In this document: in pieces, positions 18,729-59,413 of the stretch
How positions within the stretch are numbered: position 1 is the stretch's first letter
Layout: each line of letters starts with the position of its first letter
NCBI GenBank assembly: GCA_016869675.1
Contig: VGDP01000004.1
Coordinates: 1-64,000 of the forward strand
Length of the DNA: 64,000 nucleotides
Reading direction: 5' to 3'
Origin: Alphaproteobacteria bacterium
GTDB taxonomy: Bacteria; Pseudomonadota; Alphaproteobacteria; SP197
Made by a program: the position numbers and the translations under genes
Notes under the pieces: model-generated
What the model saw: only the letters and a program-made list of their open reading frames with translations
Databases searched by the model: none
What the model was told of the DNA's origin: nothing

Positions 18729-20351
<1,623 letters not shown>

Positions 20352-20448
20352 GCGGCGCGCGCACGCCCGATCGCGGGGATCATGACACCATTCCACGCGA
20401 GCGGCCGCCGCTTTAGCCTAGCCGTGACGACACAAGGCTGACGCCGGG

Positions 20449-20571
20449 ATGAAGTCGAAGCCGATCCACGAACGCAGCAGCCATCACGGCGCGCCGGTGA
20501 CCGCGGCCGACATGTTCCGCACCGTCGCCGACTACACGTACGACTAGGAGTCGTGGATCGGGCCGGACGGT
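20449..20571 (+). pseudogene. N-terminal remnant of a PAS-domain sensor
   Basis: From ATG 20449 about 32 codons read up to FRTVADYTYD, then TAG (20545-20547), then ESWIGPDGR in the same frame. VADYTYDWExWIGPDGR is the typical start of a PAS domain in sensor kinases, so the TAG most likely replaced a TGG tryptophan. Eight codons later the similarity ends and another stop follows. The rest of the sensor is missing. It lies tail-to-tail against a broken response regulator, its likely former partner. Confidence 0.65.
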
Positions 20572-21188
20572 CGCCGAACGCCAAGCCGGCGGCCTTGAGC
20601 GACGCCTGGGGACGGTTGGACACGCCCATCTTGTCGAAAATCACTTTGATGTGCGCCTTGACCGTGCTTTCCAGCACGTCGAGCTGGCGCGCGATCTCCT
20701 TGTTGGGGTGGCCCTTGGTCATGAGCTCCAGCACTTGGCGCTGGCGCGGGCTGAGGCTGGCGACGGGGCCGTTCGCGGTCAGGCCCGCGCCGGTCCAGCG
20801 GTCGCGCAACACGCGGGCCGGAACGTAGGTCTCGCCCGCGAGCAAGAGGGAAATCGCGTGGCGCAGCGTCGCGTCGTTGCACGACTTGTGGATGTAGCCC
20901 GCCGCGCATTGGCGAAGCCTCGGCGACCACGTCGGCGTCGTCGGTCGCCGAGAGGATGGCGACGGGTACGCCTGGCGCCCGCGCCCTAATGCGTCCGAGG
21001 CCCGCCCAACCCTCCATGCCGGGCATGGCCAGATCGAGCAGGATCACGTCGAATCGTTCACCGAGGCTCGCCTCGGCCTCGGCGGCGTCGCGCGCCTCGA
21101 CCACCGCGACGCCGTCGAACAGGTTCGGGAGCACCAGCGCGATGCCCTGGCGGAACAGCGTGTGGCCGTCGGCCACGAGAATGCACAT
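20550..21188 (-). pseudogene. LuxR/NarL-type response regulator, frameshifted
   Basis: From ATG 21188 a receiver domain reads MCILVADGHTLFRQGIALVL, with phospho-acceptor Asp in VILLDLAMPGMEG. The frame is lost near 20897-20912; the end of the receiver (GYIHKSCNDATLRHAISLLL) and a full LuxR HTH (LSPRQRQVLELMTKGHPNKE to KMGVSNRPQASLKAAGLAFG) continue one frame away. The frame then lacks a stop and runs over the PAS remnant on the other strand, so the original 3' end is also gone. Dead or mis-sequenced. The target genes are unknown. Confidence 0.7.
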
Positions 21189-21346
21189 GGCTAACCCGTC
21201 AGTGTGATCGTGGCCCAAGTTTAGAACGCGGCGCGGCGAAGGGAAACAGAGGCGCTGGCCGCCGGCCCCGCCTTACATCGCCCGCTGCCACGGCCTATAA
21301 GGTGCGCCGCTGATGCGTGGTACCGTGGGCCGCGCCGGGGAGGTTC

Positions 21347-25151: not shown

Positions 25152-25787
25152 CTAGGTCCTGCCGTAGGTCGCCTTGACGGTCCCGGCGCGGCCGTGGGTC
25201 GCCGTGACGCAGGCGAGCGAGCCATTCGCGTCCAGGTGCGCCACCAGCACCTCGTGATCGAAGCCGGGTAGACCCCAGGCGGCGCCGAAGCGCGGGCCCT
25301 GCGCGAGCCCGACGCCCTGGTAGAGCACCTCGCCGGCCTTAGCCCAGGAGAACAGGTAGCGCTGGTCGTGGCGCGCGATGGTGGCCGTGATGGCGTCGTG
25401 GCGTTCGCCGCTCTTGGACTCGTAGCCGACCTGGAAGCTGCCTTCGAGACCCTGGCGCGGCGCGCCGGCCGACATGGCGGCGGTCGGGCTGCCGGCGTCG
25501 CGCGGGTGGTAGAACCGGGTCGGCCATTCGCCGGTCGGCGTCGGCTGGTAGACAATCACGCCACTGCGCGAATCGAACTCGGCCGCCGTGCCGCTGGCAC
25601 GGCCGCCTTCGGCGTCCGCCGGCGTGCGGCAGCCGTAAATCCAAGATTCCTCGGCCAAGCCGCAGCCGGAGCGCGCCGCGCCCGCGCGATCGTGCCAGGT
25701 CAGGTGCCAGGCGTCGCCGACCCGCGCGATGTCCAGCGTCGGGAACGGCGCGGCCGGGTTCGCGTCACGCCAGCTACCTTCAAACAT
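25152..25787 (-). CDS. Hypothetical protein with an internal duplication
   Basis: I do not recognise this 211-residue protein. No signal peptide and no long hydrophobic stretch. Its two halves look alike: residues from FEGSW (2-6) through ARVGDAWHLTW to GCGLAEESWIYG parallel residues from LEGSF through ARHDQRYLFSW to GVGLAQGPRFGAAWG, and each half then has a short strand pair (SGVIVYQPTPTGEW, HEVLVAHLDANGSL). The pattern suggests two copies of one beta-rich domain. ATG 25787 follows GGGAGAG. It lies just after a broken FAD oxidoreductase in the same direction, with the ubiK-like gene downstream. Function unknown. Confidence 0.7.
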   Translation of the reverse strand: MFEGSWRDANPAAPFPTLDIARVGDAWHLTWHDRAGAARSGCGLAEESWIYGCRTPADAEGGRASGTAAEFDSRSGVIVYQPTPTGEWPTRFYHPRDAGSPTAAMSAGAPRQGLEGSFQVGYESKSGERHDAITATIARHDQRYLFSWAKAGEVLYQGVGLAQGPRFGAAWGLPGFDHEVLVAHLDANGSLACVTATHGRAGTVKATYGRT

Positions 25788-25803
25788 GGCTCTCTCCCTT
25801 GCC

Positions 25804-26281
25804 CTACCCGCGGCCGAGGTCGGCCAACACCCGGTGGGCGGCATTGTGCCCGGCGCGCCGCTGACGCCACCGCCCGGGTGTGCGCCCGTGCCACACAGGT
25901 AGAGGCCGGGCACGGGCGTAACGTAGCGCGCGGCGCGCGGGTGCGGCCGGAGCGAAAACACTTGATCGGGATCGAGGCGGCCGTGGTAGACGTCGCCGCC
26001 GGTCAGGCCGTAGGTGCGTTCCAAATCCATCGGCGACAGCGCCAGGCGCCCGACGATCAGGGATTTCAGGTTCGGGATAAAGCGGGTCATGCGCTCGACC
26101 AGCAGGTCGGCGACGGAACCACGCATATCGTCCCACGACCGGCCGCGCGACAGCCGATAGGGAAAGTGTTGGGCCAGGATGCTCAGGATGTGGCAGCCGG
26201 GCGGCGCCAGGCTGTCGTCCGAGGCGGTCGGGATCTGCGCGTCGATGATCGGTTCGTCGGGGATCTCGCCGGCGGCGCCCG
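25804..26281 (-). pseudogene. C-terminal half of a CrtI-like FAD oxidoreductase, truncated and frameshifted
   Basis: On the minus strand IPDEPIIDAQIPTASDDSLA then PPGCHILSILAQHFPYR, ERMTRFIPNLKSLIV, GLTGGDVYHGRLDPDQ and GLYLCGTGAHPGGGVSGAPG reproduce the C-terminal half of phytoene-desaturase-like amine oxidoreductases. The last block normally contacts FAD. One G appears to be missing near 25848-25853; correcting it gives GHNAAHRVLADLGRG and a TAG at 25804-25806. The N-terminal half, including the dinucleotide-binding motif, is absent: at about 26281 the sequence switches to an ABC ATPase fragment on the other strand. Confidence 0.75.
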
Positions 26282-26732
26282 CGCGGTCGAGATGTTCGTG
26301 CGCCTGCAACTCCCCGAATCCGAACGGTTCGGCGAGCGCTACCCGCATCAGGTCTCGGGCGGCCAGCTGCAGCGTGCCATGGCGGCCATGGTGATGTCGT
26401 GCCGGCCGAAGCTGATCGTGTTCGACGAACCGACCACAGCGCTGGACGTGACGACCCAGATCGAGGTGCTGGGTGCGATCAAGGAGCTGATCCGCGATTT
26501 CGGCACCGCCGCCGTCTACATCTCCCACGACCTAGCCATCGTGTGGAACATCGCCGACGACGTGATCGTCATGCGCCACGGCAAGGTGGTCGATAGCGGC
26601 CCAAAGCGGCGCATCTTCGCGCCGCCGCACGATCCCTACACCGAGCTGCTGCTGACCTCGGCGCCCGAGATGCGCATGACCTGGCTCAACGAACTCCTCG
26701 AGACGCGGCGCGCCCGCGCCCGTGTGGCCTGA
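26282..26732 (+). pseudogene. C-terminal fragment of a peptide-type ABC ATPase
   Basis: An open frame of 150 codons begins abruptly with EMFVRLQLPESERFGERYPH and contains the signature VSGGQLQRAMAAMVM, Walker [13 protein letters not shown], the switch VYISHDLAIVWNIADDVIVM and the oligopeptide-transporter tail HDPYTELLLTSAPEM. The Walker A half is missing. The best match is one half of a dipeptide/oligopeptide ATPase, different from yejF. It is joined head-to-head to the FAD oxidoreductase fragment, so both genes lost their 5' parts at the same breakpoint. Confidence 0.8.
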
Positions 26733-31944: not shown

Positions 31945-32853
31945 ATGGCCACCTTCGCCGCGACGCCATCCGACAGCCGCCATGGCTTCGGCATCGCCAT
32001 GGTGCTGGGCGCCGGCATGATCTGGAGCGTGGCCGGACCCCTGGTGCGCGCCGTCGATACGGCCAGCGTGTGGCCGATCCTGTTCTACAAGTCGCTGTGG
32101 ATGGTCGTGACGCTGGGCCTGGCCATGGCCGTGCGTCACCGCCGGCGCCTGTGGGCCGAGCTGATCGGCGGCTGGCGGTGGACCTTGGCCGGCGGCGTCT
32201 GCCTGGCCGGATCCAGCACGTTCTGGATCCTGTCGATCACCAACACCACGGTGGCGAACACGCTTCTGGTCCAGGCAGCGACGCCGCTGGTCGCCGCGCT
32301 CATGGCCTGGGTGCTTCTGGGCGAGTGGGTAGCGCGTTCGACGCGCCTGGCCATGGGCGTGGCCCTGGCCGGCGTCGTCATCATGGTGGGCGACGGCGCG
32401 CTGGACCACCGCCTGTTCGGCAACGTCGCCGCGATCCTGGCCGTCATCTGCTTCGCCGCGTTCAGCGTGAGCCTGCGCGCCGGGCGCGCCGGCGACATGA
32501 CCGCCTCGCTCTGCCTGGGCGGACTGATCGCCATGACAATCTCGGCGACCTGCGCCACTGACGGCCTGGCCATCAGCCTGCACGACCATGTGGTGTGCTT
32601 CATCATGGGCAGCGTCGAGACCGGGCTGGGCCTGCTGATGTACACCATCGGCGCGCGCCACGTGCCAGCCGCCGAGTTGGCGCTGCTGGTCATGGCCGAA
32701 GTGTTCTTCGGGCCGTTGCTGACCTGGCTGTTGTTTGGCGAGACGCCGTCGGCCGGCACGTTGCTCGGTGGCGTCCTGGTCATCACGGCCATCGCCGCCG
32801 AGGCGGTCCAGGCGCTGCGTCGCGCCCCCAGAGTGCCATCCTACCGAGCGTGA
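31945..32853 (+). CDS. DMT-superfamily transporter (EamA domains)
   Basis: A 302-residue inner-membrane protein with ten hydrophobic segments in two EamA halves. Supporting segments are GAGMIWSVAGPLVRAVDTAS, ANTLLVQAATPLVAALMAWV with LLGEW in the first half, and LALLVMAEVFFGPLLTWLLF with GE in the second. Probably exports a small metabolite. The stop overlaps an in-frame GTG of the next gene, so co-expression with the M24 enzyme is likely and its substrate may be related. Confidence 0.88.
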   Translation: MATFAATPSDSRHGFGIAMVLGAGMIWSVAGPLVRAVDTASVWPILFYKSLWMVVTLGLAMAVRHRRRLWAELIGGWRWTLAGGVCLAGSSTFWILSITNTTVANTLLVQAATPLVAALMAWVLLGEWVARSTRLAMGVALAGVVIMVGDGALDHRLFGNVAAILAVICFAAFSVSLRAGRAGDMTASLCLGGLIAMTISATCATDGLAISLHDHVVCFIMGSVETGLGLLMYTIGARHVPAAELALLVMAEVFFGPLLTWLLFGETPSAGTLLGGVLVITAIAAEAVQALRRAPRVPSYRA

Positions 32854-58477: not shown

Positions 58478-59413
58478 TTACGCCCTGCCGGGCCGCCCGG
58501 TCAAGCCCCTGAGGCGGGCCCAGGGGCGGCCGTCGATGGCGGCCAGGCCCAGCGCGATCAGACCCAGGCCGATGAACGTGGTGGCGCCCAGCGCCTCGCC
58601 GAGCACCACGGCGCCCAGGATCACGGCTCTGGCCGGGAACAGCAGGGTCACCAGCATAAGGTTGGTCGCCCCGGCCGAGGCCAGGGTACGGAAGAACAGG
58701 ATGTAGGCCAGCGCCGTGGAGGCGAGCGCCGGGGCAACCAGCGACGCGAGTGTCTCGAAACTGGGCATGGCCAAGGTCCACGGCCGGTCGAGGGCGAGCG
58801 CGTGCGGCAGCAGGATCGCGGTGGATGCCGTGACCTGGCCCGTCGCGGTCTGCAGAGGTGTCACGCTGAGGGCACGGAAGCGCCGGCCGAACAGGCTGGC
58901 CACGGCGTACGAGAGCGCGGCACCCAGGCACGCGAGCTCGGCCAGCAGATCCGCCCCGGCGGCACCGGCGAGCGAAGGTCCCACCAGGATCGCGACCCCG
59001 GCCACGCCCAGCAGAACCCCGGCCAGGCGCGCGGGCGTCAACCGTTCGTCGACCGTGACCCAGTGGGCGATCAGCACCGTGAACAGGGGCGTCGTGGCGT
59101 TCAGGATCGCGGCCAGGCCACTGGCGATGCGGGTCTGGCCCCACACCAGCAGGCAGAACGGGATCACGTTGTTAAGCACCGCCATGACCGCGAGCGCGCC
59201 CAGCACGGACCACTGGCCGGGCAGCCGTTGGCCCATGGCGACCAGCACTAGGTTCAGCGCCATGGCGGCTAGCCCGACGCGCGCCAGCACGATGGTCAGG
59301 GGCGGTACCTCAGCCACCGCGACGCCGACGAACAGGAATGTGCCGCCCCACAGGAGGGAGAGCACGATCAGCCGCGCCCAATCGCGCGGACCCATGGCGG
59401 GAACACCGGTCAT
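58478..59413 (-). CDS. DMT-superfamily transporter (EamA domains)
   Basis: A 311-residue inner-membrane protein with ten hydrophobic segments. The first half has [20 protein letters not shown] and [20 protein letters not shown]; the second half has [20 protein letters not shown] and [19 protein letters not shown]. It resembles RhaT/EamA permeases for drugs or metabolites. Substrate unknown. A GC hairpin lies before its start. Confidence 0.9.

Follow-up and report, generated by a model that had tools for sequence, protein, structure and literature searches.

A protein made of two LIC10280-like domains in an alphaproteobacterium, and its circularly permuted short relatives

The 64,000 nucleotides of contig VGDP01000004.1 analyzed here, referred to as the window, encode a 211-residue protein, P0001, in which a sequence-only reading had noticed two similar halves and proposed a small beta-domain duplication of no known family. 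The locus thus raises the question whether the two halves are copies of one domain, and where such a domain belongs. The explanation that we consider probable as a whole is that P0001 is a twin barrel, produced by tandem duplication of a domain of about 95 residues related to LIC10280 and to quinohemoprotein amine dehydrogenase (QHNDH) alpha domain II; the middle unit of the twin stands alone in circularly permuted relatives. The features of the locus are collected in Table 1.

Table 1. Features of the twin gene and of its immediate surroundings in the window
Feature	Position	Strand	Remarks
Twin-barrel protein P0001 (predicted)	25152..25787	-	211 aa; ATG at 25787, stop 25154-25152; based on ORF and translation, homologues and GC3
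Half 1 of P0001, residues 1-109	25461..25787	-	Degenerate LIC10280-like barrel copy
Half 2 of P0001, residues 110-211	25155..25460	-	Complete LIC10280-like barrel copy
Central unit of P0001, about residues 75-175	25263..25565	-	End of copy 1 and start of copy 2; corresponds to the stretch standing alone in circularly permuted short relatives
Ribosome-binding-like stretch AAGGGAGAGAG (GGGAGAG site)	25790..25800	-	5' of the P0001 ATG; read directly from the sequence
Decayed FAD-dependent oxidoreductase, last ~140 residues	25804..26285	-	Frame-shifted near the end; 5' limit approximate; tblastn, 48-49% to plasmid-borne FAD oxidoreductases
Decayed oligopeptide-type ABC ATPase, C-terminal part	26274..26732	+	ABC_tran positions 82-137 of 137 only, plus oligo_HPY; tblastn

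A tandem duplication of one domain

The two-copy pattern is real, and lies in an open reading frame of the minus strand. The first copy carries the motifs FEGSW (residues 2-6), IAR (20-22), LTW (29-31) and GCGLA (41-45), the second LEGSF (114-118), IAR (137-139), FSW (146-148) and GVGLA (158-162), with the same spacing in both: 9 residues from IAR to W, 10 from W to G. Full-length homologues, a GC content at third codon positions of 0.90, similar to that of neighbouring genes, and the ribosome-binding-like site mark P0001 as a real gene. Its product, judged by eye, has no N-terminal signal peptide.

Direct local alignment of the two halves of P0001 gave a score of 34; shuffled sequences averaged 28.5 (sd 5.1), and 321 of 2000 shuffles scored as well. 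Since the two copies, taken alone, are no better than shuffles, duplication was tested with the help of homologues. The half-against-half comparison proposed by the earlier reading, carried out with family profiles built from 5 proteins for half 1 and 4 for half 2, resulted in E 3.2e-6 (score 37.7), and the halves are homologous; 100 column shuffles of the same pair reached at best E 0.028 and a score of 17.1. Against a profile of ten single-domain relatives, the half-1 and half-2 family profiles scored E 2.8e-10 and E 1.8e-13, respectively. In column-shuffled controls, 100 per profile pair, no value fell below E 0.003.

A hidden Markov model of single-domain relatives led to the same result. 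It was built from 20 domains of 19 loci, leaving out L053 (a near copy of L049), L035 and L042 (the same place as L022) and the permutants; it is partly dependent on the twins, many of the loci having been found with twin-containing profiles, while the NCBIfam matches described below are independent. On half 2 of P0001 this model scores 34.5 bits over profile positions 2-88, a value reached by none of 1000 shuffles. Half 1 is matched as two pieces in the correct order, of 5.2 and 3.5 bits, the former reached by 1 of 1000 shuffles. Both halves of the Rhizobium homologue are instead clearly recognized, with 33.2 and 27.0 bits. By sequence, the second copy of P0001 is therefore intact, and the first one worn. 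The family comparisons show the P0001 family to be a tandem duplication of one domain, and the earlier suggestion of a small beta-domain duplication is borne out by the half-against-half profiles, by the single-domain model and by the strand pattern of the structure models. A chance likeness of two beta stretches, which the shuffles of the direct alignment would allow, is contradicted by the family profiles, is refuted at the family level, and can be set aside with near certainty.

Relation to the LIC10280 family and predicted fold

The further statement that the protein belongs to no known family stands only in part. All curated cut-offs were indeed missed: a Pfam scan of P0001 found no family at E <= 10, while PHROGs and a single-sequence search of the PDB gave nothing usable. 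More sensitive searches, in contrast, tie the repeat unit to the LIC10280 domain and, by profile, to domain II of the QHNDH alpha subunit.

The NCBIfam model of the LIC10280 family, NF050085, aligns with half 2 of P0001 over positions 2-73 of 85 (E 0.014, 15.7 bits), and scores 28, 24.6 and 21 bits on the twins P0002, P0003 and P0004. It picks half 2 in P0001, P0002 (E 2e-6) and P0004, and half 1 in P0003 (E 2e-5), so that both halves must carry the domain. The homology covers most of the length of the model; all scores (15.7 to 28 bits) are, however, far under the curated cut-off of 100, and thus denote homology, not membership. On these matches, each half of P0001 is a diverged copy of the LIC10280-family domain, far below the cut-off. 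The repeat unit of the twin aligns over most of the family model, yet LIC10280 proteins have one copy of the domain where the twin has two; the single-domain relatives that were read mostly start, by eye, with a signal-peptide-like stretch, which the twin lacks. Two other sets of annotations were discarded. The label "Fibronectin binding protein" for LIC10280 was met in a single table row of PMC5348505, and is not counted as evidence. Nine Pfam families, each matching one of ten single domains (E 0.002-0.27), were judged to be chance hits, as no two members agree.

A search of 177,635 PDB sequences with the single-domain profile led to residues 174-264 of 1jju_A, a QHNDH alpha subunit (E 0.0013). 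In profile-profile comparison, the single-domain alignment (A7) matches five PF14930 domains (L056-L060, from 5 of the 308 genomes searched) with E 3e-7, the best of 100 shuffled controls being 0.0061. Neither P0001 nor any of the ten single domains scanned directly matches PF14930 in Pfam, and the gathering score was not reached.

The model of half 2 (pLDDT 61) features eight strands in meander order. At this pLDDT, it superimposes on 1jmx_A 176-281 with Z 10.2 (rmsd 2.6, 95 aligned residues), and on 1jju_A 169-272 with Z 9.2 (rmsd 3.5, 98 aligned): a model of pLDDT only 61 thus shares the fold of QHNDH alpha domain II, on residues also picked by the sequence profile. Foldseek alone found no match at E <= 0.001, and the Spindlin1 structures at the top of its list were rejected, their rmsd being 12-14. 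In the full-length model, the first six strands of the pattern recur in half 1; at pLDDT 43, this model is too weak for domain pairing and for the pseudo-twofold interface at which the earlier reading placed a hypothetical ligand. We predict an eight-stranded up-and-down beta barrel; for copy 2, the pattern of eight strands comes from a model of moderate confidence.

The LIC10280-like domain looks homologous to QHNDH alpha domain II (PF14930; 1jju, 1jmx), the fold being the same and the single domain matching by profile over its full length. The QHNDH domain is part of an enzyme subunit, whereas the twin has neither a heme domain nor any other QHNDH domain; a literature search on Qn_am_d_aII found no paper. 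The half 2 model also resembles designed mini barrels, Cap15 and avidins (Z 8-11). Avidin/streptavidin and the designed mini barrels (4jnj and 6czj, Z 9.1 and 11.0) are likewise eight-stranded up-and-down barrels, but with 9-13% identity and no sequence match, and the likeness is one of fold alone. The barrel domain of Cap15 (7n34) has a Z of 10.4. The Cap15 effector of CBASS combines transmembrane helices with the barrel and is encoded beside a CD-NTase; no PADLOC family matched any of the eight twin or permuted proteins scanned, the scan being of proteins alone.

Short relatives and the arrangement of the twin

Five short proteins of 106-133 residues, from five bacterial families, contain only the middle of the twin, in which the end of copy 1 runs into the start of copy 2. 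In all five, the N-terminal part corresponds to profile positions 61-88 and the C-terminal part to positions 2-58, and the rotated sequence outscores the natural order; the rotated score was reached by 3, 7, 0, 2 and 0 of 500 shuffles of the N-terminal part, respectively. Four of the proteins are 28-32% identical to the remaining one, P0006, the genes are complete and lie among ordinary neighbours, and no N-terminal signal is seen by eye. From the order of their parts, these five relatives are circularly permuted LIC10280-like barrels.

Permutation by duplication, with predicted tandem intermediates, is described for swaposin and for circularly permuted DNA methyltransferases in PMC3320104, where the weight of this route against fission and fusion is presented as still debated. 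The present case resembles these systems in the mode of permutation; it differs in fold, and in that tandem and single permuted forms coexist here around one barrel family. A literature search on natural circular permutation with avidin found no paper. A tandem form like the twin is what permutation by duplication would lead one to expect as an intermediate, and the permutants may descend from twins. Their preference for the inner segments of the twin (C-terminal part closer to A2 than to A1, N-terminal part closer to B1 than to B2, in five of five each) was rejected as proof of such descent, because 18 of the 20 single domains also prefer A2, and because the profiles used to find the permutants contained the middle of the twin.

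In the proposed architecture, each copy of the twin would be an eight-stranded up-and-down barrel with its first and last strands side by side, as the fold suggests. A barrel of this kind is a closed ring, so that one could also form from the final part of copy 1 joined to the initial part of copy 2, and it is this unit that would survive alone in the five permuted relatives. The same property leaves room for a nested topology, with a permuted barrel made by the middle of the twin and a second, surrounding one closed by the pieces at either end. We regard this arrangement as possible, if somewhat less likely than its alternative. It is favoured by the occurrence of the middle unit as complete genes in five families, starting and stopping at two corresponding places, and by mean BLOSUM62 conservation, which is higher for both middle segments than for both outer ones in all six pairs of full-length twins. 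Protein ends are, however, often less conserved for other reasons, and by percent identity only four of the six pairs follow: between P0001 and P0003 the outer segment B2 is 32% identical, against 31% for the middle segments, and between P0002 and P0004 the outer A1 is 23% identical, against 20% for A2. The conservation of the middle segments hence fits a nested fold, without proving it, and the full-length model, at pLDDT 43, is too weak to choose.

The short proteins could also be truncated twins, i.e. decaying genes, as they match the middle of the twin without its ends. This is improbable: five diverged families keep the same start and end points, and one permutant lies tightly between valS-like and tdk-like genes (named from sequence), at 82 and 26 bases, with no room for lost ends. 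Circular permutation of the barrel is the reading retained for them.

Spread, genomic setting and possible role

Homologues of P0001 of similar length (206-221 aa) were found in three plasmid records: full-length ones in Roseibium aggregatum (E 3e-9) and Rhizobium lusitanum (E 1e-6), and a weak one in Cytobacillus spongiae (E 0.03), supported by a pairwise BLASTP E of 1e-9 for the single pair. A frame-shifted twin gene (L041) was recognized in a Kiloniellales MAG by an alignment search of species contigs. Twin proteins known here are thus five, P0001 and the frame-shifted one included. With P0001 as single query, the gene was found in 1 of 96 relatives, the window's own genome; the 16 genomes of the order searched again yielded only its own, the gene being absent from the 15 others. 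No homologue was found by single-sequence search in species contigs and viral contigs, nor by a phage search; viral contigs searched with P0002 and two single domains gave no credible homologue, two loci being dropped since the match spans only 12-16 residues. In the class, 35 of 385 genomes, the window's own included, were hit by P0001 at E <= 0.1, of which G313 alone was followed and the rest taken as chance; a search of the phylum added nothing new, its 2 hits in 398 genomes being the window's own and a single-domain place already found.

By profile search, matches occur in 11 of the 385 genomes of the class (one being the window's own) and in 9 of 317 genomes from another order. Five of the 19 other matching genomes, three in the class and two in the other order, hold a short permuted protein, and the rest single-domain forms. 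Some of these single-domain forms stand at the end of caspase-like proteins (L034, L036 and L047, named from sequence), which finish in one or two LIC10280-like barrels, two in tandem in L047; a literature search on metacaspase fusions found no paper.

In the window, the twin gene has a UbiK-like (BMFP) gene on one side and two truncated ones, for the FAD oxidoreductase and the ABC ATPase, on the other. The stop of the oxidoreductase remnant is 16 bases upstream of the P0001 ATG; the plasmid-borne genes used for comparison measure 1611-1617 bases as listed, and two intact relatives on Sphingobium plasmids have, by annotation, no twin directly beside them. The tails of the oxidoreductase (minus strand) and of the ATPase (plus strand) meet near 26280, both without their front ends, at what is either a deletion scar or an assembly join. 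Elsewhere in the window (20282-21218), two overlapping frames of the minus strand seemingly share the parts of one response regulator, named from sequence and with an output domain of the LuxR type, much as a frameshift would leave it.

P0001 might itself be decaying, an orphan acquired gene left in a scar between truncated genes, with a half-dead first barrel. The truncation of both adjoining genes, the absence of the gene from the other genomes searched in the order and among the relatives, and the weak first half (5.2 bits) point in this direction; the open frame, the third-position GC of 0.90, the ribosome-binding-like site and a second barrel intact over the whole profile point against it, and we consider decay unlikely. 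The preferred reading remains that of a twin with one worn copy in a real gene.

The neighbours of related genes offer a hint to function. Four of ten twin or permuted genes adjoin a DMT/SMR-type exporter gene. An EamA gene adjoins the twin in Roseibium, Rhizobium and the Kiloniellales MAG: in the first and the last of these, the twin belongs to one cassette with the exporter and a divergent LysR gene, the exporters being 63% and the regulators 49% identical; in Rhizobium the LysR is related, but the EamA gene next to the twin is a different one. The permutant gene at L067:6108-6803 is followed 27 bases on by an SMR gene (PF00893, E 6e-30). No exporter gene is adjacent to the Cytobacillus twin, and none was seen alongside four of the five permutants, for which a chosen few neighbours were Pfam-scanned. 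The window's own twin also has no adjacent exporter, the nearest EamA-like ORFs found by hydropathy scan starting about 6 and 33 kb away. These ORFs, named from sequence, lie at 31945-32853 and 58478-59413, and the second is 26-28% identical to the twin-adjacent exporters. The association is weaker than it looks, because EamA genes are common and because a single inherited cassette accounts for both Roseibium and the MAG.

Lipocalin- and avidin-like barrels bind small molecules. By analogy, the twin could be a putative cytosolic ligand-binding accessory, in several cases serving the DMT- or SMR-type exporter next door, an assignment that we propose as speculative. Equally tentative is the broader picture in which the single barrel, the tandem twin (perhaps with a permuted barrel nested inside an outer one) and the free-standing permutants all survive, the cytosolic forms having been taken up as putative ligand-binding partners of DMT-superfamily exporters.

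An unexplained protein is now linked with a domain family that has been named, though not studied, and with a fold of known structure. If the exporter link were true, it would provide a first role for such barrels. The greater interest of the finding lies in the permuted relatives: with one family occurring as single, doubled and permuted barrels, each of them short enough to be expressed and solved, it offers a small testable system for the origin of circular permutants.
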